In this document: piece after piece, positions 17,715 to 33,704 of the stretch
Layout: the number at the start of each line of letters is the position of its first letter
Numbering within the stretch: the first letter of the stretch is position 1
Origin: Streptomyces fradiae
Lineage (GTDB): Bacteria; Actinomycetota; Actinomycetes; Streptomycetales; Streptomycetaceae
Length of the DNA: 64,000 bases
Direction of reading: 5' to 3'
NCBI RefSeq assembly: GCF_041270065.1
Contig: NZ_CP065958.1
Span: forward strand, 1-64,000
Translations under genes and position numbers: made by a program
Notes under the pieces: generated by a model
The model's input: only the letters and a program-made list of their open reading frames with translations
Told to the model about the DNA's origin: nothing
Databases searched by the model: none

Positions 17715-17800
17715 GGAGGGGACACGCTCCTCGGGTTCGCCGTCGCCGAGCAGTCGGCTGGGGTGGGGGAAGAAAGGGCTGCCGCGCGACCAGAAACTAG

Positions 17801-17813: not shown

Positions 17814-17919
17814 CTTCCGTCAAGAGTTGAAGTAAGCGACGAGGAAAGAGAGTTCGCCTCCGCCCCGGCTCTCGGAGGGTCCAGTCGAGTTCCCAGTCCA
17901 GACCGGTGCCGGAGATGCC

Positions 17920-18477
17920 TTAGGTGCGGCCGGCGTCCATGCGCCAGAACTGGGAGTGGAGGATCACCTGGGCGTGGTCGGCCAGGTCGTTGATGATCTC
18001 GGTGAAGCGGGTCGAGGGCCAGCCGGGGGCGTCGGCCGCAGCGGTGGCTCGTAGGCGCGCGGTGAGCGAGGGGACGACGGGGGTGCGGGCGCCGAGTTCG
18101 GTCAGGGCCCAGCGGATGCCGCTGGGCTCGGTCCAGTCCGGTGGGGTCGCGCGCTGCAGGCAGGCGAGGTAGGCGCGGCGTACGGGCTCGACGGCGCCGT
18201 CGATCTCCAGGCTCGCCAGGGCCATGGCCGCCCATTCGCGGACGGTCGGGTTGTCGCTGTCCAGCAGGCCGATGAGGGCAGGGCCGCAGCGAGGATCGCC
18301 CACCTCCTCGAAGACCTCGATGGCGGTCAGCTGACCGAAGCCGCCGAGGGCGGGTAGCCCGTCGATGATGGCGGGTGTGGCGTCCACGCCGATCCAGATC
18401 AGTTCCGCGCGGGCGTCATAGGACTCCGCTGCCTCGCCGTCGAGTTGCCGGACGAGTCTGTCGATGTGCGGGTTCAT
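17920..18477 (-). CDS. HEAT-repeat-like protein, 185 aa
   Basis: A small all-helical cytoplasmic protein starting at the ATG at 18477, which has a near-ideal GGAGGAGTC ribosome site. The segment IEVFEEVGDPRCGPALIGLL with DNPTVREWAAMALASL is a typical HEAT/armadillo hairpin pair (conserved Asp, Val-Arg and Ala positions). These folds act as protein-binding scaffolds; no partner can be named. Its start overlaps by four bases (ATGA) the stop of the preceding 90-residue ORF, so the two are translationally coupled. Confidence 0.8.
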   Translation of the reverse strand: MNPHIDRLVRQLDGEAAESYDARAELIWIGVDATPAIIDGLPALGGFGQLTAIEVFEEVGDPRCGPALIGLLDSDNPTVREWAAMALASLEIDGAVEPVRRAYLACLQRATPPDWTEPSGIRWALTELGARTPVVPSLTARLRATAAADAPGWPSTRFTEIINDLADHAQVILHSQFWRMDAGRT

Positions 18478-18746
18478 GACTCCTCCGAGTGGCTGCGGCG
18501 GTGGCCGGCTTCCCGGATCGGGCGCCAGACCGGTTCGCGGGGCTGGTCCGCTGCCGGGGGTCGCACGAATCGTCGCCCGTGCTCGTCGCAGGCGCCCAAG
18601 CCCTGGTGGTTGCAGACCGTGTACGAGTCGGGCATCTCGTCCAGGACGAGGTGCCGGCGGATGGCGGTCAGGGTGTGTCCCGCGGAGGGTCGGCGCCGAG
18701 CCGGCCGTCCCGGCCGGGCCCGACGTGCAACTCCGGGGTGGGCCAT
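18474..18746 (-). CDS. Hypothetical protein, possibly 5'-truncated
   Basis: A 90-residue product that I do not recognise. Codon structure is good from about residue 20 on (LTAIRRHLVLDEMPDSY, VCNHQGLGACDEHGRRF; two Cys and two His could bind metal). The frame upstream of the ATG still looks coding (TSDRQHRLDILLAVAGA) until a TAG near 18805, and another frame before that also reads protein-like. The gene may therefore be the 3' part of a longer gene whose 5' end has decayed. It overlaps the HEAT-like gene by ATGA. Confidence 0.5.
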   Translation of the reverse strand: MAHPGVARRARPGRPARRRPSAGHTLTAIRRHLVLDEMPDSYTVCNHQGLGACDEHGRRFVRPPAADQPREPVWRPIREAGHRRSHSEES

Positions 18747-18857
18747 GGCGCCTGCGACGGCCAGCAGGATGTCCAGCCGGTGCTGCCGGTCGCTGGTCTA
18801 CACGGCGCCGACCCGCAGTCCGCCACATCCCGCAGAACGGCGCGGGCGGTGTCCGGG

Positions 18858-19439
18858 TCAGTTTCGTTTGCGCCACTCGGGGGCCACCATGGCGAGGACC
18901 ACTTCGTCGACGAATTCGCCGTAGCCCCAGGCGGATTCGCGGAAGGTGCCTTCGACGGTGAATCCGGCGCGTTCGGCGGAGCGGATCATCGGGGTGTTGG
19001 AGGAGGCGGTTTCGAGTTGGAGACGGTGAAGGCCGCGCACCTCGAATCCGTAGGCGCACAGGGCAGTCACGATGTCCGGTCCGAGTCCCATTCCGCGGAA
19101 GTCGGGGAGCAGCGAGAGTCCCAGGTGGGCGCGGCGGTTGTAGGTGTCGATGCCCCAGAGGAGGGCTTCTCCGGCGAGTTTTTCCGAGGCCAGTTCCACG
19201 ACCGAGAAGTAGACGATGTCGTCGGAGTGGTCGCCCACCGCGTAGGGGGATTTCGGCGATCCCGGAGGAATGGGGCGCCATGGTGCGGAATCGGCCAGGG
19301 CTTGCGTTCTGACGTCGTCATACAGTTCCGATTGCAGGACGGCGATGTCTTCTTCGTGGCGGGCGCGCAGCCCGATCTTCTCGCCTCGTATCACGGGGAC
19401 ATTCGTATCGGACGATGGGCGGCGCACACAAGCGATCAA
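18858..19439 (-). CDS. GNAT acetyltransferase, RimJ/RimL type
   Basis: A 193-residue acetyltransferase of the RimJ/RimL ribosomal-protein or amino-sugar class. Seen are the N-terminal GEKIGLRARHEEDIAVLQ, the central strand GEALLWGIDTYNRRAHLGLS, motif A LLPDFRGMGLGPDIVTALC, and motif B ETASSNTPMIRSAERAGFTV. The start at 19439 is a TTG with no clear ribosome site; an internal GTG (before IRGEKIG) would also preserve the domain. The regulator upstream ends only seven bases before, so the two could be one transcript. Its substrate, and whether it belongs to the adjacent biosynthetic cluster, are open. Confidence 0.85.
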   Translation of the reverse strand: MIACVRRPSSDTNVPVIRGEKIGLRARHEEDIAVLQSELYDDVRTQALADSAPWRPIPPGSPKSPYAVGDHSDDIVYFSVVELASEKLAGEALLWGIDTYNRRAHLGLSLLPDFRGMGLGPDIVTALCAYGFEVRGLHRLQLETASSNTPMIRSAERAGFTVEGTFRESAWGYGEFVDEVVLAMVAPEWRKRN

Positions 19440-19445
19440 TAACAG

Positions 19446-20408
19446 TCACCCGACCAGCCGGTCGCCGAGCGGGGTGCGGGAGTACAGGATCGCGTGACCG
19501 TGCCGGGCCCGGTCCAGGAGGCGGGCGCGGTGCAGGATGCCGAGGTGCTGGCTGACCGCTCCGGGGCTCAGTTCCAGGCGGCGGGCGAGTTCGGTGGTGC
19601 TGAGCGGCTGGCTGAGGACCTCCAGGATCCGGGCGCGGCTGCGGCCGAGCAGTTCGGCCAGGCCGTGGCTGTGGGAGACCACGCCGGCGCCCCATACCGT
19701 GCCGCGTCCGCGTGCCGGGTACCACAGGCGGGGCGGCCCGGAGTAGTCGATGAGGGTCACCGCGCGGTTGCAGAACAGCGAGGGCGTGAAGGTGAGTCCG
19801 CGGCCCCGGACGTCCAGTTGCTCCTCGACGCCCGGTTCGTCCACGCTGAGCGCGCCGTTGCTCCAGCGCAGGCCGCGGTCGATGTCGTTGAAGAGTCCCT
19901 GGGCGCCTTCGTCGGCCAGCCGTCTGGCCCGGTACAGCACGTCCGCCTCCAGGGCCGCGATCAGTTTCGGCCAGTGCGGTTCGAGCACCGCCGTCCAGTA
20001 GGCCCGGAGGGCCGCGGTGATCTCCTCCAGGAGACCCGCCGCATCGGTTCTCACCCCCTTCAGCCGGGGGTGCAGCCGGCCGCCGTTCGCGGCGTCGAGG
20101 AGATCGCGCAGCACGACATCGTGATCCGTCGAACGGATGGCGGCCAATTCGTCGTTGATGTCCGGTCTGGGACCGGTCGGATGTGGAGTAAGGAAATCCG
20201 GTAGGAATCCCGCGGGGCCGATCAGAGCCTGCAACAGAGCCCAGTCGAGATGTGCCAGATGCTGCGACGAAGCGCGCACAAGCGGCTGGTGAATCGCGTA
20301 TTTGGCAGGGTTCTGCCAGATCCACAGACTCATCACCGCCTCCTGCACGGGAGAGCAGGCGAAACGGACGGACGCCAGATCATCGGCGTCAAAGCGAAGG
20401 ACCAACAT
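19446..20408 (-). CDS. ArsR-family regulator with DUF5937 domain
   Basis: A 320-residue transcription factor. The first two thirds match the DUF5937 domain (MLVLRFDADDLASVRFACSP start, later GRGLTFTPSLFCNRAV), and the C-terminal 80 residues are an ArsR winged helix (LSTTELARRLELSPGAVSQHL with the wing HAILYSRTPLGDRL). The ATG at 20408 matches where family members begin, although the frame is open further upstream. It is divergent from the NRPS gene with only 47 bases between the starts, so one compact bidirectional promoter must serve both. That makes it the best candidate for the cluster-situated regulator. No cysteine metal site is evident in the winged helix. Confidence 0.88.
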   Translation of the reverse strand: MLVLRFDADDLASVRFACSPVQEAVMSLWIWQNPAKYAIHQPLVRASSQHLAHLDWALLQALIGPAGFLPDFLTPHPTGPRPDINDELAAIRSTDHDVVLRDLLDAANGGRLHPRLKGVRTDAAGLLEEITAALRAYWTAVLEPHWPKLIAALEADVLYRARRLADEGAQGLFNDIDRGLRWSNGALSVDEPGVEEQLDVRGRGLTFTPSLFCNRAVTLIDYSGPPRLWYPARGRGTVWGAGVVSHSHGLAELLGRSRARILEVLSQPLSTTELARRLELSPGAVSQHLGILHRARLLDRARHGHAILYSRTPLGDRLVG

Positions 20409-20455
20409 TCGGCCCAGACTAAATGTCTCGCCCGGCCGTGGGGAGGCCCACTTTG
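20409..20455. promoter_or_regulatory. Shared divergent promoter, regulator/NRPS
   Basis: The 47 bases between the two divergent start codons must carry the upstream signals for both genes. GGGAGG at 20441-20446 is the NRPS ribosome site. No clear -10 or palindrome stands out, so the actual promoters probably extend into the coding sequence of the opposite gene. Confidence 0.4.
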
Positions 20456-23400
20456 ATGTGCCCCATGGCCTCTCGCACATCCGACCACCCGTCGGAGATA
20501 TTTGCCCGTACACCAGCGGTCAGCAGCGAGCCAAACGGGGAAGCGTCCGGTGACCGACCGGACCGTCTGCCTGTCGCCCGCGCCCAGCGGGCCCTGTGGC
20601 TGCTGGACCGACTGCATCCCGGTCGCCCGCTCTACAACGTGCCCTTCGCCGTCCGGCTCCGGGGACACCTCGACGTCCCCGCCCTGGACCGCGCGCTGTC
20701 CCGTGTCGCCGAACGGCACGAGGTGCTGCGCACGGTCTTCCCGGAGCACGCCGGCGAACCGTACGCCCAGGTCCTGACCGACCCCACCGTCCCGCTCGTC
20801 CAGGTGGACCTGCGCGATCTCCCCCTCGCCGCACGGGAGGAGGAGGCGCTGGCCACGCTGCGCGGCTGGGCCGACGCACCGTTCGACCTGGCCGGCGGGC
20901 GGCTCTTCCGGGCCGGCCTGCTGCGCCTCGCGGACGACGAGCACCTGCTCGGGCTGTTCCTGCACCACATCGTGTGCGACGGCCCGTCCGTGCACGTGCT
21001 CTTCGAGGAGCTCGGCGCCTTTTACGCGGGCAAGGAGGAACTTCCTCCGCTTCCCCTGCAGTTCACCGACTACGCAGAACGGCAGGGCGACGGTGCGCCC
21101 GACCCGGCGGCCCTGGACTGGTGGCAGGAGCACCTCGACGGCGCCCCGACCCGGCTCGCCCTGCCCACCGACCGTCCCGCGCCCGGCCGGCGCAGCGGCC
21201 GGGGCGACACTCACACCGTCCGGCTGCCCCGGGAGCTCGTCGAGGCGGGCGCGGCGCTCGGCCGAAGCCTGCGCACGACCCCGTTCACGGTGATGACCGC
21301 CGCCTACGCCGCGCTGCTCGGCCGCCTCACCGGCGCCACCGACCTGCTGATCGGCACCCCCGTGACCGGCCGCACGGAGGAGGAGTACGAGCCTCTGATC
21401 GGCTTCTTCGTCAACACCGTGCCGCTGCGCATCGATCTGAGCGGCGATCCGGACTTCCGCGAGCTGGTGCGGAGGGTGCGCTCGGCGACCCTCGCGTCCG
21501 TCACGCACGCCGGCGTGCCGTTCGAGGCGCTGGTGGACAGGATGCGGGTCGAACGGGACCCGGGGACCGTGCCGCTCGTCCAGGCCATGCTCACCTTCGA
21601 GTCCCGGCCGCTGGCCGAACCGGACTTCCCGGGGCTCGCCTCGGAACTGCTGCCGCTGCTGCCGTCGGCCGCCAAGTTCGACCTGGACGTCATGATCGTG
21701 CGCGCGCCGGACGGCAGCGGCGACTACGACCTCTCGCTCACGTACAACACCGATCTGTTCGAGGCCGGCACGGTCGAGGCGTTCGCGCGCCGCTTCCACC
21801 GCCTCCTCGACGCGGGCGCCCACGACCCCGGCCTGCCCTTGCACCGGCTGCCGCTGCTCACCCCGGAGGAGGAGCGGGCCGCGGCGGAGGTGTGGAACCC
21901 GGCGCGGACGCCGCGCGACCCCGACGCGCTCGTGCCGGTGCACGACTGGGTACGCCGGCACGCGGCCACGAGCCCCGACGCGCCCGCGGTGACGTCGGCG
22001 GCGGGCACCCTGACGTACGCGGAACTCGACCGCGCCGCGGAACGCCTCGCCCACGGGCTCACCCGGGAGGGCGTGCGGCCCGGTGACGTGGTCGGCATCC
22101 TGCTGCCCCGCGGCGCCGATCTGGTCACCGCGCTCCTGGGGGTGCTCGGTTCCGGTGCCGCCTACCTCCCGCTGGACCTCACCCACCCCGCCGGGCATCT
22201 GCGGAGGATCCTGGCGGCGGCCGGCGTCCGGCACGTCCTCACCGACGGTGCCTCCGCTCCGCGGCTGGAGCAGACGGGGGCCCGGGTCCTCGACGTCCAC
22301 GAGACCGGGGCGTCCGGCCGCCGGGAGCAGCGGGACGAGCCGGCCCCGCTCCCCCACCCCGACGCCCTCGCCTATGTCCTGTTCACCTCCGGGTCGACCG
22401 GCGAGCCCAAGGGCGTGGGCGTCCCGCACCGCGCCCTCGCCAACCACGCGGCGGCCATCCGGCACGCCTACCGGCTGCAGGCGGGCGACCGGGTGCTGCA
22501 GTTCGCCAACGTCGCCTTCGACGTGGCCGCCGAGGAGCTGTTCCCGACCTGGGCGGCGGGCGCCTGCGCGGTGCTGTGCGAACAGCCGCCGGTGCCCGAG
22601 GACCTGACCCGGCTGCTCGACGAGCACGCCGTCACCGTGGCGAACCTGCCGTCGAGCTACTGGCAGCGGTGGGACGCGGCGATCGACGGCGGCGCCTCCC
22701 CGCAGGCCCGCGCGCTGCGCCTGCTGGTGGTGGGCAGCGAGCCGGTCGACCCCTCGGCGCTCCGGGGCTGGCAGGCCCGCGGCGGCGCTCCGGTCGTCAA
22801 CGCGTACGGGCTGACCGAGACGACGATCACCTCGCTCGCCCACGAGGTGCCGGCCCCCTTCGCGGACACCGTGGTGCCGGTCGGCACCCCCATCGGCGGC
22901 GTGCGCGCCTATGTCCTCGACGACGGCCTGGGGCAGCTCCCGCCGGGTGTGCCCGGCGAGCTGTACGTCGGCGGCGCCGGACTCGCGCGGGGCTATCTGG
23001 ACCGGCCCGGGGCGACGGCCGAGCGCTTCCTGCCCGACCCGTTCTCGCCCGAGCCCGGCGCCCGGATGCACCGCACCGGCGACCTGGCCCGGCGGCGGCC
23101 CTCGGGCGGTATCGAGGTGCTCGGCCGGATCGACACGCAGCTGAAGGTGCGGGGTTACCGCATCGAGCCCGGCGAGGTGGAGGCCGCCCTGTGCGGCCAC
23201 CCCGATGTGGTGCAGGCGGCGGTCGCCGCCCGGCCCGGCGCCGACGGCGTCGTACGGCTCACGGCCTACGTGGTGACCCGCTCCGGTGCCGTACCGCCCG
23301 ACCTGCGCGAGCAGTTGACGGGGCGCCTTCCGGCCCATCTCGTGCCCGGGTCCCTCACCGCCCTGCCGGCCCTGCCGCTGCTGCCCAGCGGCAAGGTCGA

Positions 23401-23830
23401 CCGCTCCGCCCTGCCCGAACCCGTCGCCCCGGCGCCGCACGCCGGAGCCGGCGCGGCACCCGGCACCGACCTGGAGCGGCTGCTCTGCGGGATCTGGCAG
23501 GAGGTGCTCGGTCTCGACGAGGTGGGTGTGCACGAGAACTTCTTCGACCTCGGCGGCACATCGTACGGTCTGGCCGCGGTCCACGTCCGGCTGCGCGAGC
23601 ACAGCGGTGGACGGCTGCCGCTGGTCGCGCTGTACGAGTACCCGACGATCGCGGCCCTCGCCCGCCACCTGGCCGACACGGCCGACGGCGCCGGCCCGGA
23701 AGGCCAGACCCCGGCAGGCTCCGCCACGGGAAGCCCCGCCCCGGAAGGCCCTCGTGCGGCGGCCCCGCAGAACACGGCTCTCAGCGCCGGCCGGGACCGG
23801 CTGCGCCGGCGCCGGCTCCAGCAGCAGTGA
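20456..23830 (+). CDS. Nonribosomal peptide synthetase, C-A-T
   Basis: A 1124-residue single NRPS module. The condensation domain (about 45-470) has an intact HHIVCDG at 170-176. The adenylation domain (about 490-990) has LFTSGSTGEPKG near 642, NAYGLTETTI and the closing LPSGKVD lysine. Reading the ten specificity positions by eye gives D-V-E-N-L-V-A-I-T-K. Glu at the third position is typical of A domains for basic amino acids (compare D-M-E-N-L-G-L-I-N-K for hydroxyornithine), but this is not a firm match. The thiolation domain has FFDLGGTS with Ser1036 for phosphopantetheine, followed by a charged tail ending RLRRRRLQQQ. There is no thioesterase or reductase. ATG 20456 follows GGGAGG by nine bases. 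It is the first gene of the operon. Confidence 0.95.
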   Translation: MCPMASRTSDHPSEIFARTPAVSSEPNGEASGDRPDRLPVARAQRALWLLDRLHPGRPLYNVPFAVRLRGHLDVPALDRALSRVAERHEVLRTVFPEHAGEPYAQVLTDPTVPLVQVDLRDLPLAAREEEALATLRGWADAPFDLAGGRLFRAGLLRLADDEHLLGLFLHHIVCDGPSVHVLFEELGAFYAGKEELPPLPLQFTDYAERQGDGAPDPAALDWWQEHLDGAPTRLALPTDRPAPGRRSGRGDTHTVRLPRELVEAGAALGRSLRTTPFTVMTAAYAALLGRLTGATDLLIGTPVTGRTEEEYEPLIGFFVNTVPLRIDLSGDPDFRELVRRVRSATLASVTHAGVPFEALVDRMRVERDPGTVPLVQAMLTFESRPLAEPDFPGLASELLPLLPSAAKFDLDVMIVRAPDGSGDYDLSLTYNTDLFEAGTVEAFARRFHRLLDAGAHDPGLPLHRLPLLTPEEERAAAEVWNPARTPRDPDALVPVHDWVRRHAATSPDAPAVTSAAGTLTYAELDRAAERLAHGLTREGVRPGDVVGILLPRGADLVTALLGVLGSGAAYLPLDLTHPAGHLRRILAAAGVRHVLTDGASAPRLEQTGARVLDVHETGASGRREQRDEPAPLPHPDALAYVLFTSGSTGEPKGVGVPHRALANHAAAIRHAYRLQAGDRVLQFANVAFDVAAEELFPTWAAGACAVLCEQPPVPEDLTRLLDEHAVTVANLPSSYWQRWDAAIDGGASPQARALRLLVVGSEPVDPSALRGWQARGGAPVVNAYGLTETTITSLAHEVPAPFADTVVPVGTPIGGVRAYVLDDGLGQLPPGVPGELYVGGAGLARGYLDRPGATAERFLPDPFSPEPGARMHRTGDLARRRPSGGIEVLGRIDTQLKVRGYRIEPGEVEAALCGHPDVVQAAVAARPGADGVVRLTAYVVTRSGAVPPDLREQLTGRLPAHLVPGSLTALPALPLLPSGKVDRSALPEPVAPAPHAGAGAAPGTDLERLLCGIWQEVLGLDEVGVHENFFDLGGTSYGLAAVHVRLREHSGGRLPLVALYEYPTIAALARHLADTADGAGPEGQTPAGSATGSPAPEGPRAAAPQNTALSAGRDRLRRRRLQQQ

Positions 23831-23965
23831 CCAGGCCGCCGGTCACGACCAGGCCGGCGGCCCCCCTCCCCCTCCCTCGGCCGGCTGCTTCCGCACGGCC
23901 GCACGCGCTGCCGGCAGTCCCTGCCCCGCACGCTTCCCTTTTGCCCCGAAAGAGGTACGTCTCAG

Positions 23966-24193
23966 ATGTCCACCGAGTCCGCCGTGCGGCGGTCCACCGA
24001 ACCCGAGGCGCGACGCTACGTCGTCGTGCGCAACGACGAGGAGCAGTACTCGATCTGGCCGGACGGCCGGGCCCTGCCAAGCGGCTGGCACGACCAGGGG
24101 TTCTCGGGCCCCAAGGAGGAATGCCTGGAGCACATCCGCGGGGTGTGGACCGATCTGCGCCCCCGGTCCCTGCGCGAGACGGCGGGTCACTGA
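23966..24193 (+). CDS. MbtH-like NRPS partner protein
   Basis: A 75-residue MbtH-family protein that binds and activates NRPS adenylation domains. The family signature is complete: NDEEQYSIWPDGRALPSGW, then G..G.KEECLEHI and VWTDLRPRSL, with both conserved tryptophans. It lies between the C-A-T NRPS and the exporter in the same direction, 135 bases after the NRPS stop. It may serve the C-A-T protein, the free-standing A-T protein, or both. Confidence 0.96.
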   Translation: MSTESAVRRSTEPEARRYVVVRNDEEQYSIWPDGRALPSGWHDQGFSGPKEECLEHIRGVWTDLRPRSLRETAGH

Positions 24194-24194
24194 C

Positions 24195-25505
24195 ATGCAG
24201 CGCAACCTGTGGCGGGTCCCCGACTACCGCAACCTCTGGCTGTCGCACTCGGTCAGCCTGATCGGCACCCAGGTCAGCGTGCTGGCCTTCCCCTTGATGG
24301 CACTGCTGCTGCTCGACGCCTCGGCGACCGAGGTCAGCATGCTCGCCGCGGTGGAGTTCCTGCCCTCCCTGCTGCTCGGCCTGCCGGCCGGCGCCTGGGT
24401 GGAACGGCTGCCCCGGCGCGCCGTGCTGATCGTGTCCGACGTCGTACGGGCCGTGGCGATGGCCGCCGTCCCGCTCGCGTACGTCCTCGACGCGCTGAGC
24501 CTTCCGCTGCTGTTCGTCGTCGCGTTCGTGATCGGCCTCGGCACGATCTTCTTCGACATCGCGCAGCTGTCGTACCTGCCCGCGCTCATCGAGCAGGACG
24601 AACTGACCGACGGGAACGCCAAGCTGGAGGGGGCGCGCTCGGTCGCGCAGCTCGGCGGGCCGACGGCGGGCGGATTCCTGATCCAGATCTTCACCGTGCC
24701 CGTCGCCATCGCCGTCGACGTGTTCAGCTACATCCTGTCGGCCTTCTTCCTGCTGCGGGTGCGCGGCCGGGACGTGCCGCCGGAGCCGATCGAGCAGATG
24801 AGCCTGCGCAAGGAGATCGCCGAAGGCGTCCGGTTCGTCTTCGCGCACCCGCTGGTACGGCCGCTGGCGCTGTGCGCCCTCGCCGCCGACCTCGCCTTCG
24901 CGGCGGTGCTGGCCCTGCAGGTCCCGTACGCGGCGACCACCCTCCACCTGGAGTCCGGCGTGATCGGCATCGCCCTCGCCGTCGGCAGCGCCGGCGGGCT
25001 CGTGGGCGCCGCGATCAGCGGCCGGCTCGCCGAGCGCCTCGGCGCGGGCCGTACGGTCCTGGTGAGCATCGTGGTCTTCAGTGCCGGTGCCGCGCTCGTG
25101 CCGCTGGCCGGCGGGGCGGTCGGCTTCGCGGCCGGACTGTTCGTGGTGTACCTGGGCGTGGTCGTCTTCAACATCCTGCAGGTGACGATCTGCCAGACGG
25201 TCACCCCGGCACGGCTGCTCGGGCGGATGAACGCGACGCTGCGCTTCATCTCCTGGGGCTCGGTGCCGCTGGGCGCCGCCGTCGGCGGTGTCCTCGTCGG
25301 ACCGCTCGACATCCGGGGCGTGCTGTGGGCCGCGGCCGGCGTGTGCGCCCTCTCCGTCCTGCCGCCGCTGTTCTCGCGCATCCGCGGCTACGTCGAGGGA
25401 CCCGAGCAGGAGCCGGAGCCGGAGTCCGGTCCGGAGTCCGGGCCGAAGCAGGAATCGACCGACGAGGCAGGTGCGCCGCCCCTGGAGACGGAAGGCGCGG
25501 CATGA
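24195..25505 (+). CDS. MFS exporter of the biosynthetic cluster
   Basis: A 436-residue major facilitator of the MFS_3 (enterobactin/macrolide exporter-like) type with about twelve membrane segments. It starts MQRNLWRVPDYRNLWLSHSV, has the inter-helix loop GLPAGAWVERLPRRAVLIVSD (motif A-like), and ends with a Glu/Pro/Ser-rich cytoplasmic tail. The ATG at 24195 follows the MbtH stop by one base, and the stop overlaps a possible upstream ATG of the PKS gene, so it is embedded in the operon. Its likely job is export of the product, which also gives self-protection. Confidence 0.93.
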   Translation: MQRNLWRVPDYRNLWLSHSVSLIGTQVSVLAFPLMALLLLDASATEVSMLAAVEFLPSLLLGLPAGAWVERLPRRAVLIVSDVVRAVAMAAVPLAYVLDALSLPLLFVVAFVIGLGTIFFDIAQLSYLPALIEQDELTDGNAKLEGARSVAQLGGPTAGGFLIQIFTVPVAIAVDVFSYILSAFFLLRVRGRDVPPEPIEQMSLRKEIAEGVRFVFAHPLVRPLALCALAADLAFAAVLALQVPYAATTLHLESGVIGIALAVGSAGGLVGAAISGRLAERLGAGRTVLVSIVVFSAGAALVPLAGGAVGFAAGLFVVYLGVVVFNILQVTICQTVTPARLLGRMNATLRFISWGSVPLGAAVGGVLVGPLDIRGVLWAAAGVCALSVLPPLFSRIRGYVEGPEQEPEPESGPESGPKQESTDEAGAPPLETEGAA

Positions 25506-25546
25506 CAGGGCACGTTCCGACATTCGACGCGAACGACGGGGGAAGA

Positions 25547-28500
25547 ATGAACAGCACAGAGCACGTGGAAGAGGCGTCGGGAAGGGCGCCGGAAGAGGCG
25601 GAGGACATCGGCGGCTTCGCCGCCGTGGTGGGGATGGCGGCCCGGGTTCCCGGTGCCCGGGACCTCGACGGCCTGTGGCAGGTCCTGGTCCGCGGCGAGG
25701 AACCCCTCACCCGCCGGCCGGCCGCCCCGGAGACCGGCCGGGCGTCCGCCTACGGTGCCGTCGACGGCGCCGACGAGTTCGACGCGGCCTTCTTCGGCTA
25801 CGCCCCGCGCGAGGCCCTGCTGCTCGACCCGCAGCACCGGGCGTTCCTGGAGTGCGCCTGGGAGGCGATGGAACACGCCGGGTACGACCCCGGCCGCCAC
25901 CCGGGACCGGTCGGCGTCTACGGGGGCAGCGGCGACACCGGGCACTTCTCCACCCTGCTCGCCCACCGGGCCGCGTTCCCCGGGGTGAGCGAGTGGCAGC
26001 TGCGCCTCGCCGGCGGAGCGGACTTCCTGACCAGCCGGGTCGCCTACAAGCTCGGCCTCAACGGCCCCGCCGTGACCGTGCAGACCGCCTGCTCGACCTC
26101 GCTCGTCGCGGTGCACACGGCCCTGCAGGCGCTCCTCGCCGGCGAGTGCGACCTGGCCCTCGCGGGCGGGGTCACGCTGCGCGTCCCGCACCCCGTGGAC
26201 GAGAACCTCGGCGACGGTCTGCTGGCCCACGACGGCCACTGCCGGGCGTTCGACGCGGCCGCCACGGGCACCGTCTCCAGCGACGGCGTCGGGGTCGTCG
26301 TACTCAAGCGCCTCGAGGACGCCCTGCGCGACGGGGACGAGATCCATGCCGTCGTCCGCGGTTCCGCGGTCAACAACGACGGCGCGGCCAAGGCCGGATT
26401 CACCGCGCCGAGCGTCGACGGGCAGGTCGCCGCCGTCCGGGCCGCGCATCTGGTCGCCGGCGTGAGCGCGGACAGCATCGGTTACGTCGAGGCGCACGGC
26501 ACCGGCACGCCGGTGGGCGACCCCATCGAGGTCCGCGCGCTGGCCAAGGCGTTCGCGGACGCGCCGGGCGGGCCCGGCTCCTGCGTCCTGGGGTCGGTCA
26601 AGAGCAACCTCGGGCACACGGACGCGGCGTCTGGGGTCGTCGGCCTCATCAAGACGGTGCTGGCGCTGCGCCATGAGCTGATCCCGGGAACCGTCCACTT
26701 CGAGCGGCCCAACCCCGAACTCGATCTGGACCGGACCCCGTTCACGGTCAGTGCGACCGCTCGCCCCTGGCCGCGGGGAGCGGCTCCGCGCCGTGCCGGC
26801 GTGAACTCCCTCGGGATCGGCGGCACCAACGCCCATGTCGTCCTGGAGGAGGCGCCGCCGCTTCCGGCCGGCTCCCCGGGCCGCCCGTACCAGCTGCTCC
26901 CCCTGTCCGCCCGCACCGGCACCGCGCTGAAGGCCGGCGCCCTGCGGCTCGGCGCCGCGCTGCGCGACGGCGCCGCCCCACTGGCGGACGTCGCGTGGAC
27001 CCTGCAGACCGGGCGGGCGGAGTTCACCCACCGGGGCTTCGTCGCGGCCACCGGCCACGAGGAGGCCGCCGGGCTCCTGGCGGGCGGTGACCCGGGGGCC
27101 CTGTCCCCGTCCCGCTACCGGGGGCGGCCGCGCCCCGTGGCGTTCCTCTTCCCCGGCCAGGGCGGGCAGCACATCGGCATGGCCCGCGACCTGTACCGGC
27201 ACGAGCCGGTGTACCGGGACGTGGTGGACGAGTGCGCGCGCCTTGCCGAGCCCGAACTCGGGACCGACATCCGCTCGGTGCTCTACCCGTCGGAGGACGA
27301 AAACAGCGAGAGCGGCGAGGCCGCCGCGCTGCTGCGGACCATGCGCTGCAGCCAGGTGGCGGTGTTCGCCACGCAGTGCGCGCTCGCGGCGCTGTGGCGC
27401 TCCTGGGGGGTGCAGCCCGCGATCGTCCTCGGGCACAGTCTGGGCGCGTACGCGGCGGCCACCGTGGCGGGCGTGCTCGACCTGCCGGACGCCCTGCGCC
27501 TGGTCCTGGAGCGCAGCCGGATTCTCGACGGCCTGCCGGGCGGGGCCATGCTGGCCGTCCCGCTGTCCGAGGACGAACTGCTGCCGCTGCTCCCGGCCGA
27601 GGTGTCCGTCGCCGCGGTCAACGGGCCCCGGCAGTGCGTCCTCACCGGCACCACGGACGGGATCGCCGCGGTCCGCGGGCGCCTGGACGCGCAGGGGGTG
27701 GACGCCCGGCTGCTGCACATCAGCGCCGCCGCCCACTCCGCGCTGGTCGAACCGGCCCTGCCCGAGTTCGAGAAGCATCTCGCCGAGGTGACGCTGCGGC
27801 CGCCGGTCCTGCCCTGGATCTCCGACCGCACCGGACTTCCGGTCACCCCGGAGCAGGCCTGCGACCCGTCGTACTGGAGCGGGCACCTGCGGCACACCGT
27901 CCGGTTCGAGCAGGCGCTGCGCACCCTGTTCGCCGCCGGCGACCACGCCCTGCTGGAGATCGGACCGGGCCACACGCTGACCACCCTCGCGCGCCGGCAC
28001 CCGGACTGCGGGGCGGACCGCGCCCTCGCGCCCAGCCTCCCGCACGCCGCCGACGAGGCGGGCGGCGGTCTGACGCTGATGACCGCCCTGGGCCGGCTGT
28101 GGCAGGAGGGCGTGGCCGTGGACTGGGCGGCCGTGCACGGCGGCGAGTCCCGGCGCCGTACCCCGCTGCCGGCCTACCCGTTCGAGCGGCAGCGATTCCG
28201 GCTGGCGGCCCCGGCGGCCCAGGCCGGGGTTCCTGGCGCCGGAGTTCCGGTGGCCGAGGTCACGGCGGTCGCACCGGAGCCGGAGGCCGGTGGAGGCGGC
28301 GGCTCGGTCGAGTACGCACGGCCCGACCTCGGCGACGAGTACGAGGAGCCGGTCGGCCCCCTGGAGCGGGCCGTCGCGGCGGCGTTCGCCGAAGTGCTCG
28401 GCCTGGACCGGGTCGGACGGCACGACAACTTCTTCGACTACGGGGGCGACTCCCTGGTCGCGGCGCAGTACTGCGCGCTGATCCGCGCCGCGTCCGGCGC

Positions 28501-28588
28501 CGAGGTCGCCGTCCGCGCGGTGTTCCGGGCGCCCACGGTGGCCCGGCTGGCCGCGGCGATCGAGCTGGCGAAGGAGGCCGGGGAATGA
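25547..28588 (+). CDS. Type I polyketide synthase, KS-AT-ACP
   Basis: A 1013-residue PKS module. The ketosynthase (about 20-450) has the Cys of TACSTSL at residue 182 and both histidine motifs (EAHGTGTPVGDP, KSNLGHTDAASG), so it should be active. The acyltransferase (about 525-830) has GHSLGAY with Ser631. Its specificity loop reads AAAHSALVEP in place of HAFH (malonyl) or YASH (methylmalonyl); GHSLG and the overall pattern favour malonyl-CoA. The carrier domain has DYGGDS with Ser969. There is no ketoreductase, dehydratase or enoylreductase, so a beta-keto product is expected. The short N-terminus before the KS suits an NRPS-to-PKS handover. ATG 25547 has GGGGGAAG; ATG 25502, overlapping the MFS stop, is an alternative. 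Confidence 0.95.
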   Translation: MNSTEHVEEASGRAPEEAEDIGGFAAVVGMAARVPGARDLDGLWQVLVRGEEPLTRRPAAPETGRASAYGAVDGADEFDAAFFGYAPREALLLDPQHRAFLECAWEAMEHAGYDPGRHPGPVGVYGGSGDTGHFSTLLAHRAAFPGVSEWQLRLAGGADFLTSRVAYKLGLNGPAVTVQTACSTSLVAVHTALQALLAGECDLALAGGVTLRVPHPVDENLGDGLLAHDGHCRAFDAAATGTVSSDGVGVVVLKRLEDALRDGDEIHAVVRGSAVNNDGAAKAGFTAPSVDGQVAAVRAAHLVAGVSADSIGYVEAHGTGTPVGDPIEVRALAKAFADAPGGPGSCVLGSVKSNLGHTDAASGVVGLIKTVLALRHELIPGTVHFERPNPELDLDRTPFTVSATARPWPRGAAPRRAGVNSLGIGGTNAHVVLEEAPPLPAGSPGRPYQLLPLSARTGTALKAGALRLGAALRDGAAPLADVAWTLQTGRAEFTHRGFVAATGHEEAAGLLAGGDPGALSPSRYRGRPRPVAFLFPGQGGQHIGMARDLYRHEPVYRDVVDECARLAEPELGTDIRSVLYPSEDENSESGEAAALLRTMRCSQVAVFATQCALAALWRSWGVQPAIVLGHSLGAYAAATVAGVLDLPDALRLVLERSRILDGLPGGAMLAVPLSEDELLPLLPAEVSVAAVNGPRQCVLTGTTDGIAAVRGRLDAQGVDARLLHISAAAHSALVEPALPEFEKHLAEVTLRPPVLPWISDRTGLPVTPEQACDPSYWSGHLRHTVRFEQALRTLFAAGDHALLEIGPGHTLTTLARRHPDCGADRALAPSLPHAADEAGGGLTLMTALGRLWQEGVAVDWAAVHGGESRRRTPLPAYPFERQRFRLAAPAAQAGVPGAGVPVAEVTAVAPEPEAGGGGGSVEYARPDLGDEYEEPVGPLERAVAAAFAEVLGLDRVGRHDNFFDYGGDSLVAAQYCALIRAASGAEVAVRAVFRAPTVARLAAAIELAKEAGE

Positions 28589-29343
28589 CACGGACCCGCA
28601 CCCGGTGGGTGCTCTCCCGCCCGGGCGGTGACCCGCAGGGGGCCCACGTGTACTGCTTCCCGCACAGCGGCGGTTCGCCGGGCGAGTACCTGCGCTGGGC
28701 CACGCGGCTTCCCGCGCACCGGGTCCGGGCCGTGCAGCCGCCGGGCCGCGGCAGCCGCCTGGACGAGGAGCCGTACACCGACATGGCGCCGCTCGTGGAC
28801 GCCCTGGTCTCCCAGGTCGCGTTCGAGGAGCCGTACACCCTCTTCGGCCACAGCCTCGGCGCGCTCGTCGCGTACGAGACGGCGCTCGCCCTGCGCGAAC
28901 GGGGCCTGCCCGGACCGCGGGCGCTGGTCCTGTCCGGCACCGCCGCGCCGCACGCCCTGCCGGTCAGGCCGTCGCTGCGGCACCTGGACGGACCTGAGCT
29001 GGCGGCCGCCGTCGAGCGGACGTACGGTCCGCTGCCGGCCGGGCTGCACGAGGACCCGGAGCTGCGCGATCTGCTGCTCACCAGTCTGCGGGCCGATCTG
29101 GAGATCGTCAGCGGCTACCGGCACCGGCCGGTGCCCCCGCTGTCCTGCCCGCTCACCGTGCTGGGCGGCAGCGACGACTCCGAGCCGCTCGACGGCCTCG
29201 GCGCCTGGCGCACGTACACCACCGGGCCGTTCGACCTGCAGATCCTTCCTGGCGACCACTTCTACTTCCGGGAGTGCCCCGATGTCTTCTTCGCCCTCCT
29301 CGACCGCGTCCTCGACCGTCCCCTCGACCGCCCCCTCGCGTAG
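28585..29343 (+). CDS. Type II thioesterase
   Basis: A 252-residue alpha/beta hydrolase of the external (type II) thioesterase family. It has YCFPHSGGSPGEYLRWA at the N-terminus, the nucleophile motif LFGHSLGAL (Ser90), a catalytic Asp region (VLGGSDDSEPL) and the His of PGDHFYF. Such enzymes clear mis-primed or stalled carrier proteins; in a cluster without an integrated TE it might also release product. It overlaps the PKS by ATGA, and its own 3' end is overlapped by the next gene by 62 bases. Confidence 0.94.
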   Translation: MTRTRTRWVLSRPGGDPQGAHVYCFPHSGGSPGEYLRWATRLPAHRVRAVQPPGRGSRLDEEPYTDMAPLVDALVSQVAFEEPYTLFGHSLGALVAYETALALRERGLPGPRALVLSGTAAPHALPVRPSLRHLDGPELAAAVERTYGPLPAGLHEDPELRDLLLTSLRADLEIVSGYRHRPVPPLSCPLTVLGGSDDSEPLDGLGAWRTYTTGPFDLQILPGDHFYFRECPDVFFALLDRVLDRPLDRPLA

Positions 29344-31243
29344 TCCGCTGCACACCCTCTACTCGGGGACCGTGCCCTGGCAGCGGCTCCTCGCCTTCCC
29401 CGAGCCGGGCGCCGGTCCCGGCCGGGCGGCCGGGGACGCGGCGGTCGCCGCGATGGCCCGGCTGCTCCGCGAGCACGTCGACCCCGAACAGGTGGAACGC
29501 ACGGGCCGCCTCCCGCAGGAGCTCATGCCCGCGCTGCGCGAGGGCGGATTCCTGAAGCTGATGATCGGCACGGACCTGGGCGGGCTCGGCCTGACGCCGT
29601 ACCACGCCTTCCGGGTCCTGGAGGTCGCGGCGAGCTGGTGCACACCGGTGGCCTTCAGCCTCGCCATCACCAACGGCTTCGGCTCCGGCTCGTACCTGCC
29701 ACTGCTGCCCGCCGGACCGCTGAAGGAGCTCATCACCGAGCGCGTGCGCGAGGGCATCGTCTCGGCCGGCGCGGACGCCGAACCCATCGGCACGGCCAAC
29801 GAACGGCGGGCGACCACGGCCGTTCCGGTGGACGGCGGGAAGTTCTACGAGATCACCGGCGAGAAGGTGTTCATCGGCAACGGCACGGTCGCCGACCTGA
29901 TGGACGTCTCCGCCACCGTCCCGTGCCCCGACGGCCCGGACGAGGTCCGTCTGCTGTTCGTGGACAGCCGCGCGGAGGGGTTCCGGGCGCTGGGGCGGCA
30001 CGAGTTCATGGGCCTGCACGGCGCCGAGATCGGCCGGCTGCGACTGGACCGGGTCCGGGTGCCCGCCTTCCACCTGATGGACGAGTCCGAGGACAGCTGG
30101 CGGATGCGTCCGGGGGAACGGGAGCCTTGTGATCGGGAGCCGGGCGAAGAGAAGCCGGGCGTAGGGGAGCCGGAGGCGGTTTCCCGCCCGGTGGCCGAGG
30201 CCGGATTCACGCCCACCGATCTCGGACAACTCGCCTCCCTCGGGCGGATGCTGGTGATCGGCCCGTCGTCCCTCGCCATCGCCCGGCTGTGTCTGCACTG
30301 GTCCCGTGCGTTCGCCGCCGAGCGCGTCATCGACGGGCGCAGCCTCGCGGAGTACGAGGAGATCCGGCACCGCATCGCCGCGACGGCCGCGGACGTGTAC
30401 ACCATCGACAGCGTGATGGCGTGGGTCCTGCAGGCCCACGAGTCCGGGGACAGCCAGCCGGAACTGACGGCGGCGAAGAACCTCGTCTCGCTGGCCTGCT
30501 GGCGCACGGTGGACCGTACGGTCTCGCTGCTCGGCGGAGAGGGGTACGAGACCGCCGCCAGCAAGGCCCGGCGGGGCGCCCAGCCCTTTCCCGTGGAGCG
30601 GTTCTTCCGGGACGCACGGGCCCTGCGGGTGGCCGGCGGCGTCGACTTCATGGTCGACCGGTGGTCGGCCGAGGCCGCCCTGAGCACCTGCTGGACCACC
30701 GGCGAGCCGCCCGACATCACGCTCCTGGACCGGGTGCCCGCGCCCGACGGCGCCCATCTGTCCCCGCCGTGCCGGGAGCACCTGGAGCATCTCCACGCCG
30801 AGGCACACAGGCTCGCCTCCGCCTGTGCGCGGCTGACCATCGGCCGGTCCGCGCAGGAGGTGTTCGCCCGGCAGCGCCGCACCACCGTCCTCGGCCGGAT
30901 CGGCACCGAACTTCTCGGCATGGCTCTCGTCCTGGCCCGGGCCGCCGCCCGCGCGGCTCAGGGCCACCCGGAGCAGCTGCCGCTCGCCGACCTGGCGTGC
31001 GCCGCCGCGCGTCGCCGGCTCGCCGGGCTGTGGCCCGTGCTGGACGACCGGGACGACGGCCGGGGCGACCGGGACGGCGAGCCGTCGGTCGCGGGGCCGG
31101 TGGAGGCGCTGCTGACCGGCACCGGCTGCGACTTCCTCGTCACGGACGTGATCACCGACCTGCCGAACGCCGGCTCCACGGAATCCGGCTCCACGGAATC
31201 CAGCACTACGGAATCCAGCTCTACGGAAAGGGATGGTCGCTGA
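29282..31243 (+). CDS. Acyl-CoA dehydrogenase homologue with atypical active site
   Basis: A 653-residue flavoprotein-like protein within the NRPS-PKS operon. Residues about 30-480 follow the acyl-CoA dehydrogenase layout (helical, beta, helical domains: ITGEKVFIGNGTVADL, LGGEGYETAASKARR, FRDARALRVAGGVDFM). At the position of the MCAD base (Glu in YEGT) it has Ala (RVAGGVD), and at the isovaleryl-CoA dehydrogenase base (DLER) it has Gly (SLGR). A charged insertion of about 40 residues lies near 280-320, and an extra helical region of about 150 residues follows the core. The last residues are GSTES-type repeats. The neighbouring valine-loading A-T protein suggests that it acts on a carrier-bound valyl group, as KtzA and prolyl-carrier dehydrogenases do on theirs. 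ATG 29282 has GGGAG seven bases upstream. Confidence 0.85.
   Translation: MSSSPSSTASSTVPSTAPSRSPLHTLYSGTVPWQRLLAFPEPGAGPGRAAGDAAVAAMARLLREHVDPEQVERTGRLPQELMPALREGGFLKLMIGTDLGGLGLTPYHAFRVLEVAASWCTPVAFSLAITNGFGSGSYLPLLPAGPLKELITERVREGIVSAGADAEPIGTANERRATTAVPVDGGKFYEITGEKVFIGNGTVADLMDVSATVPCPDGPDEVRLLFVDSRAEGFRALGRHEFMGLHGAEIGRLRLDRVRVPAFHLMDESEDSWRMRPGEREPCDREPGEEKPGVGEPEAVSRPVAEAGFTPTDLGQLASLGRMLVIGPSSLAIARLCLHWSRAFAAERVIDGRSLAEYEEIRHRIAATAADVYTIDSVMAWVLQAHESGDSQPELTAAKNLVSLACWRTVDRTVSLLGGEGYETAASKARRGAQPFPVERFFRDARALRVAGGVDFMVDRWSAEAALSTCWTTGEPPDITLLDRVPAPDGAHLSPPCREHLEHLHAEAHRLASACARLTIGRSAQEVFARQRRTTVLGRIGTELLGMALVLARAAARAAQGHPEQLPLADLACAAARRRLAGLWPVLDDRDDGRGDRDGEPSVAGPVEALLTGTGCDFLVTDVITDLPNAGSTESGSTESSTTESSSTERDGR
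31172..31231 (+). repeat. 15-bp tandem repeat inside the dehydrogenase gene
   Basis: Four units of 15 bases: GGCTCCACGGAATCC twice exactly, then two diverged copies. They encode GSTES repeats at the extreme C-terminus and run into the ribosome site of the next gene. The number of units is likely to vary between strains. Confidence 0.9.
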
Positions 31244-31244
31244 C

Positions 31245-33134
31245 ATGCGCAACGGCTTCACCCGCCGGGTGCACGACGCACGCTGTGCGGACCTGTGCGT
31301 CCACGAACTGTTCGCCGGGCACGTGCTCGCCACACCCGACCGCGTCGCCCTCACCTGCGCGGGCCTCGACCTCACCTACGCCGAACTCGACGCCCGCGCC
31401 GCTCGGTTGGCCCAGCGGCTGCACCGGGCGGGCGTGACGGGCAACGTCCCGGTCGGGGTCCTTCTGGACCGCTCGGCGGAGTTCGTCGTGGCCGTCCTCG
31501 CGATCCTGAAGGCCGGCGGCTGCTACGTCCCCCTGGACCCGGAGTATCCGGTGGCGCGGCTGACGGCGATGCTGGAACTGGCCGGCGCCCGGGTCGTCGT
31601 GTCGCGCGGGAGTACCCCGGGGTGGCTCGCCGGGCGGGCCGACCTCGCCGATGGGGCGATGACGGCCATGACGGCCGTGACGGTGCTGGACGTCGAAGAG
31701 GCGGCGGCGTACGAGGAAGCAGGCGGCGAGGCCGGTTCGATGGGCGCGCCGGCCGTGACCGCGTATCCGGACCCACGCCCGGACGATGTCGCCTACATCA
31801 TGTTCACGTCCGGATCGACCGGTACGCCCAAGGCCGTGGCCGTACGCCACGCGGGCATCGTCCGTCTGGTCGACGAGCCCAACTACGCCCGCCTGGACGC
31901 GGACCAGGTGATCGCCCAGCTGTCCTCGGTCTCCTTCGACGCGGCGACGTTCGAGATCTGGGGCGCGCTCGCCAACGGCGCGCGGCTGGTGGTGGCACCG
32001 CCCGGCCCGCTCTCCCCGCAGGAGCTGGGCACGCTGCTGCGCGAGGAACGCGTCACCTGCGCGTGGCTCACGGCGGGACTGTTCAACATCATGGTCGACG
32101 AATGCCCGGACGACCTCGCCGCCCTGCAGCAGCTGCTGACCGGCGGCGACGTGATGTCCCCCGACCACGCCGGCCGGTTCCTGCGGGCGGCGCCGCACTG
32201 CACGCTCATCAACGGCTACGGTCCGACGGAGGTGACGACCTTCACCGCGTGCCACACCGTCACGGCGGCCGACACGAAGGCGCCGCGCATCCCTATCGGC
32301 CGCCCCGTCGACGGCACCTGGACCGAGATCCTCGACGACGACCTGCGTCCGGTGCCGCCGGGTGTCCCCGGCCACCTCTACGCGGGCGGCTTCGGGGTGG
32401 CCCGCGGCTATGTGGGTGACGCGGCCCTGACCGCCGAGCGCTTCGTGCCCGACCCCTGGGCGTGCGGCGAGCGGCTCTACGCGACCGGTGATCTGGCCAC
32501 GTACGGCCCCGACGGCACGATCGACTTCCTCGGCCGGGCCGATCAGCAGCTGAAGAAGCGCGGCTATCGCGTGGAACCGGCCGAGATCGAGTCGGCGTTG
32601 CGCCAGGACCCGCTCGTCGCCGACGCGGCCGTGCTCCTCCACGGGGAGCGGGCGGACGACGGCACGCTCGTGGCCTGCCTCGTACTGCAGGCGGGCGTGG
32701 GTGCGGACACCGAGGCCGGCCCGCTCGATGCGATCCGTGAGCGTCTGACCGACCGTCTGCCGCACTATCTGCTGCCCGACCGCCTGGTGCGGCTCGACTC
32801 GCTCCCGCTGACCCCGAACGGCAAGGTGGACCGGCGTGCTCTGGCCTCCGCCGTGACGGCGGTGCCGTCGGACGTGCCCACGTCGCACTCCCCCACGGAG
32901 GCCGGCGCTCCGCTCCCCGGCACCGAGCAGGCCCTGGCGGCCATCTGGACCGAGATCCTCGGCCTGCCGCGGGTCACCCGCGACGACGACTTCTTCGCCC
33001 TGGGCGGCCAGTCGCTGCAGGCGAGCCGCATGGCCTCCCGCATCCGTAACCGCCTCGGCACGTCGGTCCCGCTCGACGCCATCTTCGACCACCCCACCAT
33101 CGCGGAGCTGGCCGAGCTCCTCGACGCGGGGTAG
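31245..33134 (+). CDS. Free-standing A-T NRPS protein, valine-type code
   Basis: A 629-residue adenylation-thiolation didomain protein. The A domain (about 15-520) has MFTSGSTGTPKA near 186, INGYGPTEVTTF and LTPNGKVD. The ten specificity residues read by eye are D-A-F-W-L-G-G-T-F-K, one conservative change from the published valine code DAFWIGGTFK, so L-valine is predicted. The T domain has FFALGGQS with Ser590. With no condensation domain, the protein can load an amino acid for modification in trans or act as initiation module for the C domain at 20456. The start is ATG 31245 (an ATG at 31233 is an alternative); it directly follows the dehydrogenase stop at 31243. Confidence 0.94.
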   Translation: MRNGFTRRVHDARCADLCVHELFAGHVLATPDRVALTCAGLDLTYAELDARAARLAQRLHRAGVTGNVPVGVLLDRSAEFVVAVLAILKAGGCYVPLDPEYPVARLTAMLELAGARVVVSRGSTPGWLAGRADLADGAMTAMTAVTVLDVEEAAAYEEAGGEAGSMGAPAVTAYPDPRPDDVAYIMFTSGSTGTPKAVAVRHAGIVRLVDEPNYARLDADQVIAQLSSVSFDAATFEIWGALANGARLVVAPPGPLSPQELGTLLREERVTCAWLTAGLFNIMVDECPDDLAALQQLLTGGDVMSPDHAGRFLRAAPHCTLINGYGPTEVTTFTACHTVTAADTKAPRIPIGRPVDGTWTEILDDDLRPVPPGVPGHLYAGGFGVARGYVGDAALTAERFVPDPWACGERLYATGDLATYGPDGTIDFLGRADQQLKKRGYRVEPAEIESALRQDPLVADAAVLLHGERADDGTLVACLVLQAGVGADTEAGPLDAIRERLTDRLPHYLLPDRLVRLDSLPLTPNGKVDRRALASAVTAVPSDVPTSHSPTEAGAPLPGTEQALAAIWTEILGLPRVTRDDDFFALGGQSLQASRMASRIRNRLGTSVPLDAIFDHPTIAELAELLDAG

Positions 33135-33156
33135 GGGGTATCCACCAGCTGGTCCT

Positions 33157-33185
33157 GCGGCGCCTGACCCTGGGTCAGGCGCCGC
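33157..33185 (+). terminator. Hairpin after the NRPS operon
   Basis: GCGGCGCCTGACC (33157-33169) and GGTCAGGCGCCGC (33173-33185) form a perfect 13-bp stem with a three-base loop, 22 bases after the A-T stop codon. A second imperfect hairpin, CCGATCGACCG with CGGTTGATCGG (33219-33251), follows. Confidence 0.75.
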
Positions 33186-33365
33186 TGTGGCGAGCCGGGG
33201 CGGCCGGTGAGGGATCACCCGATCGACCGCACGGACCGGTCGGTTGATCGGACTTGTGACGAGATGCCGTAGGGGGCATTCGGGTGGCATATGTCGTCTG
33301 CCGCAACCGACCCCGCCGCCCACGCTGTCGTCCTCCGCAGTGGCATGACGACCAAGGAGGCACTT

Positions 33366-33704
33366 GTGACTGGTTTTCAGGCTTTCACCTCGAACACCGC
33401 CGGGCTGTGGGATCTCGACCCCTACCGCTTCCCCGCCGCAATCGTCGACGACCTGCCCGAGCCGCACTCGACCGTCTGCGGCCTCTTGGAGCCGGGTGAC
33501 TACGCCCTGCCCGCACCGGACCCGGCGAGCCGGCTGGCCGATCCGCTCGAGCCGGCCGACCGGCGCCGGCTGGAGCTGCACGCGGCTCTCACGACCGCGG
33601 GCATCGCGCCGCTGCCGGGCGACCTCGACGCCATCACCGCGCTGTGCGAGCTGGACGACACCACGCACGCCGCGCTCCGGCGGTGGATCAGCCACACCGT
33701 GTGA
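33366..33704 (+). CDS. Unrecognised 112-aa protein at the cluster edge
   Basis: A small acidic soluble protein with no family that I recognise. The GTG at 33366 is chosen because AAGGAGG lies five bases upstream, one of the strongest ribosome sites in the window; earlier in-frame ATGs at 33291 and 33345 lack one. The sequence has a Phe/Pro-rich N-terminus (TGFQAFTSNTAGLWDLDPYR), a proline-rich middle and a predicted helical C-terminal half (ELHAALTTAGIAPLPGDLDAITALCELD). It sits after the operon terminator with its own leader, codirectional with the cluster. It might be an accessory or regulatory protein of the pathway, or unrelated. Confidence 0.75.
   Translation: MTGFQAFTSNTAGLWDLDPYRFPAAIVDDLPEPHSTVCGLLEPGDYALPAPDPASRLADPLEPADRRRLELHAALTTAGIAPLPGDLDAITALCELDDTTHAALRRWISHTV

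Follow-up and report, generated by a model that had tools for sequence, protein, structure and literature searches.

EpxF, the flavoenzyme of epoxomicin biosynthesis, works after the assembly line, where it carries out decarboxylation of a β-keto acid, desaturation and epoxidation; its R273A variant is inactive, and its S406A variant yields the enone only (PMC12624316). In the matlystatin (mat) pathway, deletion of matG abolished deshydroxymatlystatin A, which was explained through a vinyl ketone, and the unit added by MatO was traced to methylmalonyl-CoA by labelling (PMC5719088). The product of the threopeptin (sna) cluster is an enone (PMC11212132). Here we describe a related locus in the window, by which we mean the analysed stretch of DNA, the first 64 kb of a single 7.88-Mb contig (NZ_CP065958.1) of Streptomyces fradiae. 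A 13.7-kb block (19446-33134) holds seven plus-strand genes and their own divergent regulator. The genes encode, in order, a nonribosomal peptide synthetase (NRPS) with condensation, adenylation and thiolation domains (C-A-T), an MbtH-like protein, a major facilitator superfamily (MFS) exporter, a polyketide synthase (PKS) with ketosynthase, acyltransferase and acyl carrier protein domains (KS-AT-ACP), a thioesterase (TE), an acyl-CoA dehydrogenase (ACAD) homologue and a free A-T protein. We consider it probable that the block is a self-contained line for a small peptidyl (Val-X) vinyl ketone of the matlystatin/threopeptin kind.

The ACAD homologue is a relative of EpxF

The window ACAD belongs to the EpxF family. 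Among all PDB sequences its best match is EpxF (9gn5; 374 bits, 1.1e-110), followed at 67 bits by a very-long-chain acyl-CoA dehydrogenase (VLCAD). Searched with Foldseek, its AlphaFold2 model (mean pLDDT 81.8) matches 9gn5 with an E-value of 2e-38, TM-scores of 0.77/0.90 and 36% identity, and the next matches are ACAD9 and VLCAD, at 3e-22 and weaker. Aligned with an EpxF copy in which X stands for an unseen loop, the protein is 39% identical over 567 columns; Arg273 of EpxF is kept as Arg292, and Ser406 is replaced by Ala421 (the printed alignment numbering runs one above the residue numbers of PMC12624316). By this alignment, the window enzyme naturally carries the change that halts EpxF at the enone, and it is predicted to be a decarboxylase-dehydrogenase. 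Its gene adjoins a single PKS module and a TE, as in the EpxF/EpnF/MatG family. Among the searched open-licence papers, S406A occurs only in PMC12624316, from which SnaO and MatG are absent, and no paper was found that ties the published S406A to natural Ala homologues.

Position 406 across the family

Pooling the best 120 rows of each of three protein searches (out of 265, 256 and 268 rows) yields 260 distinct proteins including that of the window, and a presumed MatG brought the alignment to 261; these lists are biased towards the three queries. The Arg273 position is nearly invariant (Arg in 259, Lys in 2), and position 406 is divided between Ala (141) and Ser (102), with Thr in nine, Met and Trp in two each, and Leu, Gly, Pro, Asn and a gap in one each. 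Ten of the ACADs are linked to epoxyketones, and nine of these have Ser406: EpxF (P0190), the proteins of Streptomyces sp. BRA346 (P0238), S. sparsogenes (P0225) and Cystobacter fuscus (P0205), and the environmental DNA (eDNA) clones AR_412, NM_1663, AB_162, AZ_379 and AB_1383. P0190 is named EpxF in its record, the C. fuscus protein we take to be that of macyranone, and the eDNA clones we likewise take to be epoxyketone-linked. For BRA346 and S. sparsogenes the link to epoxyketones is published (PMC8988807, PMC13126170), the listed protein being presumed to be the cluster's own.

In a FastTree tree (307/308 sequences, column 406 excluded), a label of Ala, Ser or other requires 31 changes, compared with 103 or more in 200 shuffles. 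The window falls, with its synteny relatives, in a clade of 62 tips (support 0.996), of which 60 have Ala, one has Ser (P0012) and one a gap (P0088); the clade around EpxF (n=112) has Ser in 92, Ala in nine, Thr in seven and other states in four. We also compared 49 loci, namely the window, L009, L010 and 46 fetched loci, with L133 and L134 outside the counts. Arg273 is present in 44 of them, and position 406 is Ala in 26, Ser in 14, Val in five, Gly in two, and Thr and Ile in one each. The Val406 enzymes are distant EpxF-family ACADs (L098, L100, L101, L120 and L128), whose stretches contain KS and AT matches and no C or A match.

A known vinyl-ketone enzyme, MatG, is presumably represented by an ACAD of genome G1076. 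Loci L131/L132 of that genome encode an AurF-type N-oxygenase, a methylmalonyl-CoA-mutase homologue, an FMN_bind_2 protein, the ACAD, two zinc dehydrogenases, an MFS protein and an A-T-KS-AT-ACP protein, and the ACAD is followed (L129) by C, carrier, A and C domains. The FMN_bind_2 protein is presumably the KtzT-like MatF. This gene content matches the description of the matlystatin cluster (PMC5719088), and the presumed MatG carries Arg273 and Ala406. Stackebrandtia is absent from the names shown in the best 120 rows of the three protein searches, most of which give no full name.

The assembly line and its proposed product

The A-T code reads DAFWLGGTF by alignment to PheA; the reading covers nine positions, with position 517 outside it. 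The same letters occur in L009, L010 and L103, and variants are DAFFIGGTF (L105/L106), DAFFLGATF (L123/L124/L126) and DAFLVGATA (L085). The sequence-only reading that preceded this work had reported a valine code at one change from the published one; the code itself stands, and the supposed change does not, as DAFWLGGTFK is listed for valine in MlcM (PMC9113097).

The code DVENVGA[IV]T marks the A domain that presumably feeds the PKS, in the nine window-type loci where this domain is whole (L085, in which it is fragmented, was left out) and in 8/8 loci with the ureido C-domain signature EHHLVHDG, which suggests the same second residue in amide-type and ureido-type lines. Other codes at this domain are DVENVGGIT (L086) and DAESIGSVT (L121 and L122). 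The window code, DVENVGAIT, was not found in the searched literature; its Glu at position 239 would match a side chain that is polar or basic, and X is perhaps of this kind, possibly arginine. Arginine is the threopeptin residue at the corresponding place, and the predictors applied to SnaA failed to call it (PMC11212132). The window C domain has the motif LHHIVCDG in place of the ureido signature EHHXXHDG, so that an amide bond is expected, and we rejected a ureido product on this ground. The ureido signature marks a sister cluster type with split genes (L087-L090, L092, L093, L099 and L117).

The PKS consists of KS, AT and ACP, with no methyltransferase or reductive domain, and no Pfam domain was found in the 110-residue gap between AT and ACP. 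The motifs of its AT are GHSLG and AAAHS, those of MatO GHSLG and TAGHS, with 53% identity between the two ATs over 291 columns. By analogy with related pathways, the extender is likely methylmalonyl (C3), where a C2 unit had been proposed, and the stand-alone TE, previously taken as a type II (editing) enzyme, is probably the release enzyme for the β-keto acid.

In the route that we propose, the free A-T would load valine, and C-A-T, aided by MbtH, would amide-link it to the second residue, X, which may be polar or basic. KS-AT-ACP would add a single methylmalonyl unit, the TE would release an α-methyl β-keto acid, and the flavoenzyme would decarboxylate this acid and desaturate the enolate to the vinyl ketone, where, with Ala in place of the EpxF epoxidation Ser, it would stop. 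The MFS protein would export the product, and the ArsR-like protein would control the operon. As a Michael acceptor, the vinyl ketone would react at protease active sites; a product with a free N-terminus may cyclise.

Weighing the alternatives

Several observations, some of them bearing on rival explanations, weigh against a vinyl-ketone product. Position 406 is more variable than a strict switch (Val, Gly, Thr and Ile in some of the 49 loci), and AZ_40 has Asn there though linked to an epoxyketone, so that a single residue may not decide epoxidation. Ser406 occurs in three of the eight ureido-type loci (L093, L099 and L117), which makes ureido epoxyketones conceivable, and P0012, from a 22.7-kb contig of Streptomyces virginiae, is the lone Ser406 protein of the window clade, which makes it a natural counterpart for judging the switch. 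The comparison at this position covers one of two known vinyl-ketone enzymes, MatG and not SnaO (ADD43710.1), and MatG is itself presumed from cluster content; moreover, it is placed among Ser-bearing neighbours with a local support of 0.119, so that its Ala is possibly an independent change.

The rival that survives best is a full epoxyketone pathway, in which the flavoenzyme would also epoxidize the enone to give a proteasome-type inhibitor. EpxF is indeed the nearest solved relative of the window ACAD, and the PKS module for macyranone, an epoxyketone, also lacks a methyltransferase domain (PMC11212132). We nevertheless regard such a pathway as unlikely, given that Ser406, essential for epoxidation by EpxF, is Ala in the window. 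Two further features of epoxyketone pathways, neither of them universal, are missing from the window as well, a PKS C-methyltransferase and a proteasome β-subunit gene; no proteasome-family gene lies within the window (the two matches of the genome are at 1.48 Mb), though the epoxomicin cluster is also without one (PMC8988807).

Slightly less probable is the same line run with malonyl, the flavoenzyme only assisting decarboxylation, or one whose end product is a pyrazinone-like ring, formed when the free amine attacks the ketone. The sequence AAAHS is not the textbook methylmalonyl AT motif. In the window AT it is non-diagnostic for the extender, and this too counts against the vinyl ketone, which could not arise by the proposed route if the AT used malonyl. 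Ring closure is favoured by the block itself, in which no N-capping gene was recognised with Pfam, so that the free amine of valine would begin the chain; threopeptin and its congeners are reported to close at the ketone, in their case via the ureido NH (PMC11212132). Against malonyl stand the 53% identity to the AT of MatO, which adds a methylmalonyl unit (PMC5719088), and the case of SnaB, a PKS without methyltransferase that takes up propionate and thus likely uses methylmalonyl, despite the malonyl prediction of antiSMASH (PMC11212132).

A comparably slim chance is left to an ACAD that dehydrogenates carrier-bound valine, or the second residue, to a dehydro amino acid; the sequence-only reading had likewise supposed a modified valine. 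Such reactions on carrier-bound substrates have precedents in the prolyl-carrier-protein dehydrogenases and KtzA. The ACAD gene directly adjoins the A-T gene, and in relatives a carrier (T) domain directly follows the ACAD (L121, in which no A domain was detected downstream of it, and L122, whose stretch ends there) or is fused to it (P0028 and P0049), so that a carrier-bound substrate is conceivable, a last point against the vinyl-ketone route. However, the curated prolyl-PCP dehydrogenase model NF045652 (RedW/PltE type) scores 32 bits on the window ACAD against a cut-off of 650, and the EpxF decarboxylation Arg is kept. The ACAD also accompanies KS-AT-ACP and TE in L086 and L091, which follow the window order up to the ACAD and have no A-T gene detected in the remaining stretch. 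On the weak model score we set aside valine dehydrogenation as the most likely role, and a modified valine is unsupported because EpxF/MatG-type enzymes act on the β-keto acid after chain extension. The evidence is in keeping with a small product of a hybrid NRPS-PKS line that has a trans-acting valine loader; what had been observed is largely right, and its central chemical interpretation is probably wrong.

Conservation and apparent loss of the block

The block is conserved and, within the searched literature, undescribed. The complete biosynthetic order occurs in 10 of the 49 loci (the window and 9 of the 48 others), including those of S. montanisoli and Actinoplanes xinjiangensis, and all 10 encode Ala406 and Arg273; two of these (L105 and L106) gave no MbtH match, and L085 is apparently frameshifted. 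With a 17-row profile at an E-value of 1e-125 or better, and in draws that partly overlap, matches were found in 24/391 genomes of the order (own genome included), 3/35 of the order of G498, 10/341 of the family of G734, and in 0/22 and 2/397 genomes of two further draws. In the class draw (394 genomes), nine genomes, including that of the window, match at 5.4e-138 or better; the rest of the 128 that match at 1e-60 have far lower scores and look like housekeeping ACADs.

Genome G770, of the same species, is about 95.5% identical to the window up to 17866 and again from 33067. Within the 24 kb compared, the 193 bases between these flanks have no significant match. G770 has kept the final 68 bp of the A-T gene, and the simplest reading of this remnant is that the block was deleted in G770 rather than inserted in the genome of the window.

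Gene content, borders and regulator

The seven genes identified earlier were borne out, all on the plus strand, by Pfam domains, by active-site motifs, which were present in all domains searched (KS, AT, ACP, C, both A, both T and TE), and by tight junctions, with two 4-base overlaps and some other genes nearly touching. Pfam E-values are 9e-85 (C), 2e-83 (A), 5e-61 (KS), 7e-57 (AT), 4e-39 (TE) and 4e-85 (A of A-T), and weaker, 2e-15, for the ACAD. The features are collected in Table 1. The C-A-T start is probably the conserved ATG at 20465 and not the first ATG of the frame at 20423.

The start of the block at 19446 agrees with the first description, which had ended it at 33704; it stops at 33134. 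The open reading frame (ORF) 33291-33704 has no Pfam family and no tblastn match in L009 or L010, and we rejected an extension past 33134 on the latter ground. The divergent regulator was also correctly seen. The DUF5937 family named for it was seen only in orthologues, at 5.7e-5 in L009 (below the cut-off) and 3e-6 in L010 (at the cut-off); in the window protein DUF5937 was not detected even at an E-value of 10, and Pfam detects an ArsR-type helix-turn-helix (HTH). Orthologues of 73-78% identity occupy the same position in L009, L010 and L103 (a partial stretch), so that four window-order loci have the regulator; the stretches fetched for the remaining six showed none. A sigma-70 scan found no site, and a terminator scan found three against 2.3 expected.

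A chitinase (GH19) with a ricin-type lectin domain adjoins the block (16587-17813); this and the other neighbours (GNAT, HEAT-like, oxidoreductase and MFS genes) look unrelated to it.

Table 1. Features of the block, with coordinates in the window
Feature	Coordinates	Strand	Basis or remark
Segment absent from same-species genome G770	17867..33066		Replaced there by 193 bp
Divergent regulator	19446..20408	-	Pfam: ArsR-type HTH at C-terminus; N-terminal part DUF5937-like in orthologues
Short divergent intergenic region	20409..20464		Conserved block in 4/4 aligned loci (window, L009, L010, L103)
NRPS C-A-T	20465..23830	+	Pfam; A code DVENVGAIT; C motif LHHIVCDG
MbtH-like protein	23966..24193	+	Pfam MbtH 1.3e-19
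MFS exporter	24195..25505	+	Pfam MFS_1 3e-41
PKS KS-AT-ACP	25502..28588	+	Pfam; AT motifs GHSLG, AAAHS
Stand-alone TE	28585..29343	+	Pfam Thioesterase 4e-39; GHSLG motif
EpxF/MatG-type ACAD-like flavoenzyme	29372..31243	+	EpxF 9gn5 match by sequence and fold
ACAD Arg292, codon CGG	30245..30247	+	Equivalent to EpxF Arg273 (decarboxylation)
ACAD Ala421, codon GCC	30632..30634	+	Equivalent to EpxF Ser406 (epoxidation residue)
Free A-T	31245..33134	+	Code DAFWLGGTF; alternative start 31233; presumed valine loader

Implications and comparison with known systems

An orphan 13.7-kb block thus becomes a concrete prediction, a two-residue vinyl ketone that could be trapped with a thiol, and the seven-gene split line with its trans loader offers a compact system for studying decarboxylative desaturation. 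More tentatively, and with the balance of probability on the other side, position 406 may be a natural switch between Ser/epoxyketone and Ala/vinyl ketone, such that many 'epoxyketone-like' clusters, that of the window included, make vinyl ketones; the window family would then make Val-X vinyl ketones against trypsin-like or cysteine proteases, their X being common to amide and ureido lines (DVENVGA[IV]T) and possibly arginine. With such a one-residue rule, sequence would reveal the kind of warhead in this family, which is mined for proteasome drugs.

The pathway had not been recognised as a known one. For the exact gene set this may hold, no cluster with the window gene order having been found in the searched literature; what had been missed is the kinship with the matlystatin, threopeptin and epoxyketone pathways. 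With epoxomicin and eponemycin (EpxF/EpnF) the window shares a homologous flavoenzyme with Arg273, which in those pathways acts after PKS extension; it differs in Ala for Ser406, in a PKS without methyltransferase and in a two-residue line with a trans loader. With threopeptin (SnaA-SnaE and SnaO), an enone, it shares two A-T units, one C domain, KS-AT-T, MbtH, a stand-alone TE, an ACAD and a transporter, a likeness by description and not by Sna sequences (PMC11212132); the window C domain lacks the ureido signature, its A-T is a separate protein, and its block has no PEARL gene. Matlystatin shares an EpxF-type ACAD with Arg273 and Ala406 (presumed MatG, 37% identical to the window ACAD over 466 columns), a single KS-AT-ACP without methyltransferase and a stand-alone TE. 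The NRPS and the gene order differ, and the window block lacks N-oxygenase, mutase and piperazic-acid-type genes by Pfam. Matlystatin arises through a vinyl ketone made from methylmalonyl (PMC5719088), and the same is predicted for the window.

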